Source of the DNA: Candidatus Daviesbacteria bacterium RIFCSPLOWO2_01_FULL_37_10
Lineage (GTDB): Bacteria > Patescibacteriota > Microgenomatia > Daviesbacterales > UBA10151
Direction of reading: 5' to 3'
DNA length: 36,934 nucleotides
NCBI GenBank assembly: GCA_001776865.1
Contig: MFDK01000021.1
Location: 1-36,934 of the forward strand
Made by a program: the position numbers and the translations under genes. The notes beneath the pieces are model-generated. The model saw only the letters and a program-made list of their open reading frames with translations, did no database searches and was not told the origin of the DNA. Within the stretch, counting starts at the first letter, position 1; each line of letters begins with the position of its first letter. Positions 19,925-20,421 of the stretch are shown here, one piece after another.

Positions 19925-20021
19925 CATGTAGCAAATCGTTGTTTCAGTCTAACAGGACTCGAATACTTTTAGCCTCAAATGTATGAGGATTTTACAAAAC
20001 TATTAGAATTTCGTGCCTATG

Positions 20022-20095
20022 CGGGACCGACGGGACTCGAACCCGCAACCTCCTCCGTGACAGGGAGGCGCTCTAACCAATTGAGCTACGGCCCC
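20022..20095 (-). tRNA. tRNA-Asp (GTC anticodon)
   Basis: 74 nt on the minus strand. The acceptor GGGGCCG (20095 to 20089) pairs with CGGTCCC (one G-U). The D arm is GCTCAATTGGTTAGAGC, anticodon stem CCTCC/GGAGG closes CTGTCAC (anticodon GTC), and the T arm is GCGGGTTCGAGTCCCGT. CCA is not encoded. Its 5' end supplies the stop codon (TAG of CCGTAG) of the nuclease remnant upstream. Confidence 0.96.
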
Positions 20096-20345
20096 AAATT
20101 AATCTTTTCTTCTTTAATTATTCTATTTAAAATCGTTCTGCTCTTCAATTTTTTTAGCCTTACTTCTATTTTCCTTGCTTCACCTATAGAATTATACTTC
20201 TGACTAAAAACTAATTTAAAAGGTCTACTAAATCTAATCGACTTAGTTTTTCCACTATTGTGCTCTGTCAATCGCCTGTTGAACCTATATAATAACGTTC
20301 GTTTGGCAATGACTTAAGTATATAGACAATTCCCGTACAAGCATG
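20086..20345 (-). pseudogene. GIY-YIG nuclease-like gene with frameshift
   Basis: One minus-strand frame from about 20327 reads VYILKSLPNERYYIGSTGD and stops at TGA (20268-20270). The next frame takes up the same protein as RLTEHNSGKTKSIRFSRPFK, LVFSQKYNSIGEARKIE and on to a stop at 20086-20088. Together these are a compact GIY-YIG domain of the YhbQ/UPF0213 type (VYI and YIG motifs, Arg, and the TEHNSGKTKS loop), missing about three residues at the junction, so a small deletion broke the frame. No good start codon exists upstream, where the frame runs into a degenerate tRNA copy. The last codons and the stop lie inside the tRNA-Asp gene. Confidence 0.72.
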
Positions 20346-20359
20346 TAACCTTAATTCAT

Positions 20360-20421
20360 ACTCGAACCCGCAACCTATCCGATGTACATCGGATCTCTCT
20401 AACCAATTGAGCTACGGCCCC
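20360..20421 (-). pseudogene. Degenerate second copy of tRNA-Asp
   Basis: The minus strand repeats the tRNA-Asp 5' half (GGGGCCGTAGCTCAATTGG... to GAG) and the segment AGGTTGCGGGTTCGAGT, but the anticodon arm is replaced by an 18-bp perfect palindrome (arms ATCCGATGT/ACATCGGAT) and the sequence diverges after the T loop, so there is no acceptor 3' strand. It cannot be a working tRNA. It lies in the same orientation as the intact gene, with the GIY-YIG remnant between them. Confidence 0.75.

Follow-up and report, generated by a model that had tools for sequence, protein, structure and literature searches.

A decayed GIY-YIG nuclease unit at a tRNA-Asp gene of Patescibacteria points to what appears to be a family of tRNA-gene parasites

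A broken nuclease gene between two versions of tRNA-Asp

In the stretch of DNA analysed here (36,934 nt, contig MFDK01000021.1 of Candidatus Daviesbacteria bacterium RIFCSPLOWO2_01_FULL_37_10; from here on the window) the minus strand carries, in this order, a 5′ part-copy of tRNA-Asp, a broken GIY-YIG nuclease gene and an intact tRNA-Asp(GUC), the latter being present in a single copy in the 0.97-Mb, 95%-complete assembly (Table 1). The initial annotation had taken this for a small nuclease that targeted the tRNA gene and had come to the end of its homing cycle. The question is whether the locus is indeed what is left of a mobile unit, or a tRNA duplicated beside a gene that decayed for unrelated reasons.

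Table 1. Features of the tRNA-Asp locus, in positions of the window
Feature	Position	Strand	Remarks
Intact tRNA-Asp(GUC)	20021..20095	-	ARAGORN; Rfam 71.7 bits
GIY-YIG gene, C-terminal half	~20086..20276	-	ends ...INLGP* within the tRNA
Break in the nuclease gene	20263..20285	-	lacks 13 nt present in intact relatives; reading frame disrupted
GIY-YIG gene, N-terminal half	20268..20339	-	TGIVYILKSLPNERYYIGSTGD, then stop
5′ part-copy of tRNA-Asp	20360..20421	-	nt 1 to ~61, anticodon arm replaced
Perfect 18-nt palindrome ATCCGATGTACATCGGAT, replacing the anticodon arm	20377..20394	.	stem kept in relatives with compensatory changes

The part-copy is identical to the intact tRNA-Asp over its first 25 nt (nt 1-25) and continues with the palindrome and then with 17 nt of variable/T-arm sequence. 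The copy itself had been recognised correctly; its anticodon arm, described as scrambled, has in fact been replaced by a palindrome that is conserved (see below).

The two halves of the nuclease gene occupy different frames, confirming the frameshift that had been read from the window alone, and ACG stands where the relatives have the ATG start. The stop codon is, as also noticed at the outset, supplied by the 5′ end of the intact tRNA-Asp, TAG being nt 8-10 of the tRNA (20088-20086). The C-terminal half by itself still matches PF01541 (29.1 bits, E = 1.3e-6; curated cut-off 22.6), whereas the relatives score 54-61 bits. Since frame and start codon are both lost, the nuclease of the window unit should be unable to mobilise it any more. 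The end of a homing cycle fits this copy but not the family as a whole, which appears active. A scan of the locus for promoters and terminators gave no signal above expectation, and a group I intron as the cause of the arrangement was rejected because an Rfam search found no match to RF00028 in the window. We regard the window copy as the relic of a compact tRNA-gene unit, the value of which lies in pointing to a family.

The genome of the window (G000) contains seven GIY-YIG genes, most of the others not beside a tRNA; many such genes per small genome, typically 2-11, are found in Patescibacteria (this genome and 19 others of the class). One of them, intact, lies behind tRNA-Gln on contig C29 (L002:1244-1767); the first 18 nt of this tRNA are repeated just upstream, together with a hairpin-like stretch. 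In other Patescibacteria there is likewise a clade of the nuclease beside tRNA-Gln.

Relatives and the wider nuclease family

Among 45 genomes of the window's GTDB family (a search of the genus returned the window's own genome only), four (G002, G018, G023 and G029) have the same order with intact nucleases, as has G489 from another family of the same class. The arrangement in the window is therefore neither a matter of chance nor an assembly artefact, the latter having been named in the initial annotation as a possible refutation. The nucleases of the family members compared are 57-59% identical, the flanking genes differ between the three relative loci inspected, and the upstream part-copy of each relative agrees with the tRNA-Asp of the genome in which it lies. 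At the other tRNA-Asp genes of the 45 genomes that search revealed no such unit.

In the relatives the anticodon arm of the part-copy is a hairpin of the form GTCCGATG-NN-CATCGGAC or ATCCGATG-NN-CATCGGAT, and the same hairpin replaces the anticodon arm in part-copies of tRNA-Val, tRNA-Ile and tRNA-Ala in other genera and families, so that the second tRNA copy is not merely degenerate, as had been supposed. When eleven arms were aligned, all 88 of 88 cells were paired, four of the eight pairs showed double changes and none a one-sided change; the lack of one-sided changes is as expected from a DNA palindrome, the numbers being small. Searched for alone in 380 genomes, the palindrome pattern was present in five; three of these were additional to the Asp sites already known, and of the three only G160 was a tRNA-like case. 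The Asp-group palindrome occurs once in the window's genome.

The site in G160 (L085:1380-1550) is a tRNA-Ala-like gene with a palindromic anticodon arm, the D loop of which is split by a complete, different tRNA-Ala(GGC); no nuclease was found near it. A separate kind of interruption was seen in G005, G019, G036 and, twice, in G024 (L091, L092, L093, L094 and L095), relatives in which introns of 196-204 nt interrupt tRNA-Asp between nt 35 and 36 of the anticodon; two of these introns attain the group I cut-off of Rfam.

When 84,980 genomes were scanned, with loci selected by the protein alone, 45 loci emerged from Patescibacteria, Bacteroidota, Ignavibacteriota, Nitrospirota and other taxa, with many tRNA isotypes. 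At 37 of the 45 a tRNA lies on the same strand within 150 nt, whereas random placement within the same loci, repeated 2000 times, gave 4.9 on average and never more than 11. Usually a part-copy of the same tRNA is found across the nuclease from the whole tRNA, either as 5′ part-copy, nuclease, whole tRNA or as whole tRNA, nuclease, 3′ part-copy; of 35 nucleases in the first of these layouts, 25 have their stop codon within the tRNA. The early suspicion that a small nuclease is associated with tRNA genes, and that a partial duplication of the tRNA arises with it, was thus borne out, and the check proposed with it, whether GIY-YIG genes lie beside tRNA genes elsewhere, was positive. In an independent sample of PF01541 proteins, 18 of 28 loci had a tRNA no more than 300 nt away, invariably on the same strand, and seven had a part-copy scoring above 100 shuffles.

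The intact nuclease has about 87 amino acids and consists of the GIY-YIG catalytic domain only; comparison with PF01541 and NCBIfam revealed no separate DNA-binding domain beyond the catalytic fold, and NCBIfam TIGR01453 is matched only below its cut-off. On the nuclease tree, which is short (87 columns) and poorly resolved, the tRNA isotype changes 30 times as compared with a mean of 45.4 after shuffling. A viral origin was rejected, only eight weak matches to viral contigs being found, none of them near a tRNA. The family, occurring next to tRNA genes in several phyla, appears to be an undescribed kind of tRNA-gene parasite; in its anatomy and in the existence of the family we have high confidence.

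Palindromes in tRNA loops, and empty and occupied sites

Inserted into the part-copies are GC-rich hairpins, one or a pair, of 13-72 nt; in most cases no tRNA bases have been lost, and the inserts lie mostly in the D, anticodon or T loop. By our own tally, in which many insertions are related by descent and hence are not independent events, about 16 are in the D loop, four in the anticodon loop and five to seven in the T loop or at its edge; a few weak alignments suggest positions in the D stem. Folding energies are below those of shuffles for nearly all of the hairpins. The palindrome is co-inherited with the nuclease: the stem type, assigned by eye from the stem sequence, changes nine times on the poorly resolved tree, as against a mean of 20.2 and a minimum of 16 in 500 shufflings. 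The stem CCCGCC, for example, is found in L054, L113, L063, L066 and L080 in different loops and tRNAs with close nucleases, an indication that the palindrome belongs to the unit.

Palindromes of the type CCTGCCTG..CAGGCAGG recur at 1-21 per genome in 11 of 12 Bacteroidota genomes, the reversed pattern used as control giving 0. That they insert into any DNA hairpin loop was rejected for G424 (Bacteroidales), in which the dispersed copies often lie within runs of GGATGCT repeats (L186-L205). At another locus (L066:2070-2308) an extra, full-length copy of tRNA-Arg(CCT) has palindromes in both the D and the T loop, the one in the D loop enclosing about 70 nt of AT-rich cargo.

Intact nucleases and empty sites in relatives, both of which the initial annotation had suggested looking for, were found. 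Presence and absence at one site are clearest in Aquimarina, where the tRNA-Arg(TCG) that follows one conserved gene holds no unit in 27 of the 30 loci fetched and is occupied in the other 3. G419 has one unit of 296 bp; G445 has two in tandem, of the same length as that of G419 and 99.0% identical, which may reflect re-invasion of the intact copy or, equally well, unequal crossing-over. The nuclease of G448 is only 50.7% identical to that of G419, its nearest neighbour on the tree being that of Flavobacteriaceae R38 (L054), another genus, with which it also shares the palindrome type. From the nuclease and palindrome types of G448 on the one hand and G419 and G445 on the other we conclude that two lineages entered the same Aquimarina site.

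The unit may bring its own tRNA. In G445 and G448 (two of the three occupied Aquimarina sites; L104 and L113) remnant and intact tRNA differ at acceptor pairs 5-6, and in G160 the intact tRNA is clearly not a copy of the remnant. By analogy with the mobile ORFs of fungal mitochondria (mORFs, see below) these differences would favour import of the whole tRNA, although mutation could be an alternative source of those in Aquimarina, where the acceptor pairs are hypervariable. In the window remnant and intact tRNA-Asp are nearly identical, and given the agreement over nt 1-25 the intact tRNA could be a plain local duplicate. Among the Aquimarina loci L103-L132, pairs 5:68 and 6:67 of tRNA-Arg(TCG) are of at least four types between congeners, the rest of the tRNA being almost invariant.

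A proposed homing-like unit, its rivals and known systems

From the sequences compared we propose that the unit is probably a homing-like mobile ORF in tRNA genes, which carries a palindrome and either keeps the tRNA or puts another in its place. It would consist, in about 0.3 kb, of the palindrome and a single-domain GIY-YIG ORF (~87 codons) between an intact version of the host tRNA and a truncated, sacrificed one. The nuclease would cut an empty tRNA gene, and repair from the occupied allele would introduce a complete tRNA along with nuclease and palindrome, whereby the essential tRNA is retained; the repair route is deduced, the empty/occupied polymorphism observed. The native copy would be left as the remnant seen at the loci, with the palindrome in a loop or in the anticodon arm. 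Such a remnant should be unable to act as a tRNA and may thereby escape cutting. Transcription of the ORF presumably starts at the promoter of the tRNA itself, and as the stop codon of the ORF is often inside the downstream tRNA, processing by RNase P would limit expression of the nuclease. Our confidence in this mechanism, in which we infer the specificity and the mobility of the nuclease, is moderate. Several findings count against it: the nuclease has no domain beyond the catalytic fold to which its specificity could be assigned; about 11 of the 18 tRNA-linked genes in the independent sample have no recognisable part-copy; an intact, apparently cuttable tRNA always adjoins the nuclease, which simple homing fails to explain and which is the chief difficulty; and of the dispersed palindromes in one Bacteroidales genome none is in a hairpin loop and only one is beside a nuclease. 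The agreement of the two Asp copies in the window and the hypervariable acceptor pairs of Aquimarina, described above, point the same way.

The dispersed palindromes would be accounted for if the GIY-YIG protein acted like a transposase on its linked palindrome, following REPtron logic (see below), with the tRNA gene as a docking site and the dispersed palindromes as non-autonomous copies. This is possible, though we find it rather doubtful. The palindrome type goes with the nuclease tree, irrespective of which loop or which tRNA is occupied, the recurrence in Bacteroidota genomes is as just described, and the insertions into tRNA loops are mostly exact; yet the Asp-group palindrome is present only once in the window's genome, the dispersed copies have no insertion context in common, and we know of no GIY-YIG protein that joins strands. 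It is improbable that the nuclease benefits the host as a housekeeping enzyme of repair or tRNA metabolism that is co-transcribed with tRNAs, the part-copies being incidental tandem duplicates. In favour of this, tRNA and nuclease gene share a strand throughout, and a clade of some orthologues linked to tRNA-Gln is devoid of part-copies. Presence is patchy, however (3 of 30 loci at the syntenic Aquimarina site, 5 of 45 genomes in the window's family), and such polymorphism argues against a housekeeping role, as do the many tRNA isotypes, the tandem copies, the palindromes co-inherited with the nuclease and the tolerance of broken copies.

The answer to the question asked at the beginning is that a plain local tRNA duplication with unrelated decay, be it a misassembly or a pseudogene outside any mobile unit, is most improbable. 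The window taken alone would agree with it, its nuclease being broken and its two tRNA copies identical over 25 nt, but the same structure with intact genes is present in independent genomes, including L054 and L058, which are not titled as MAGs, and the anticodon hairpin is conserved with compensatory changes; at the level of the family this explanation is already refuted.

We return to the homing-like unit and what it would mean. In the open-access literature (subscription journals and preprints lay outside this scope) no description of tRNA-linked GIY-YIG/palindrome units was found, nor any role assigned to GIY-YIG genes beside tRNAs; a survey of the GIY-YIG superfamily names tRNA in other contexts only (PMC1564403). 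If the genes are tRNA-gene parasites, both the abundance and the patchy distribution of small GIY-YIG genes would be explained, and the units would be a means of duplicating or replacing essential tRNA genes across bacteria, as well as an experimentally tractable selfish element of 0.3 kb with matched nuclease and palindrome. On this reading, too, expression of the nuclease would be held in check by the maturation of the very tRNA on which it sits. A broader claim, which we put forward tentatively and would not yet bet on, is that the units are a new class of prokaryotic mobile element, in which a single-domain GIY-YIG nuclease, jointly with the palindrome that belongs to it, enters tRNA genes, puts a tRNA of its own in place of the resident one and spreads palindromes over the genome, in at least Patescibacteria, Bacteroidota, Ignavibacteriota and Nitrospirota.

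Of the solved structures the closest by sequence are single-domain GIY-YIG proteins of UPF0213 (1ZG2 and 1YWL, entries labelled hypothetical), which agree also in size; it is by sequence only that they are set beside the tRNA nucleases. With GIY-YIG homing endonucleases of the I-TevI type, be they free-standing or borne by introns, the units share the catalytic fold and the occurrence of empty and occupied alleles at one site, but there is no group I intron at the window locus, although tRNA-Asp of some relatives has one, and the nuclease has no DNA-binding tail.

Rickettsia palindromic elements are small palindromes inserted inside genes. To our knowledge they have no linked nuclease and are not specifically in tRNA loops. 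The tRNA units resemble them in having small palindromes within genes and differ in exactly these two respects.

These elements are mentioned together with REPtrons, which consist of a RAYT transposase and REP palindromes (PMC3733652). REPtrons and tRNA units alike have short palindromes that are linked to a nuclease gene, the linkage in the tRNA units being seen from the palindrome type following the nuclease tree, and that are dispersed in the genome; the tRNA units, however, use a GIY-YIG protein rather than an HUH tyrosine transposase (RAYT), and are anchored in tRNA genes with the palindrome in tRNA loops.

In the mORFs of fungal mitochondria, e.g., in Allomyces atp6 and in Glomus atp6, atp9, cox2 and nad3, an endonuclease ORF has entered an essential gene and brought with it a duplicate of part of that gene, by which the native part is restored or replaced, the native remnant staying behind; the enzyme of the Glomus atp9 mORF is of the GIY-YIG type (PMC3630166). 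As in mORFs, a part of the host gene that restores the gene is carried along, the part-copy and the intact tRNA flanking the nuclease on opposite sides. Unlike mORFs, the tRNA-nuclease units are bacterial and in tRNA genes, have a single-domain nuclease of ~87 amino acids and a linked palindrome, and duplicate either end of the tRNA. The full definition of mORFs does not cover the tRNA units, nor does that of REPtrons; by analogy, the units would work most like mORFs with a REPtron-like palindrome as partner.
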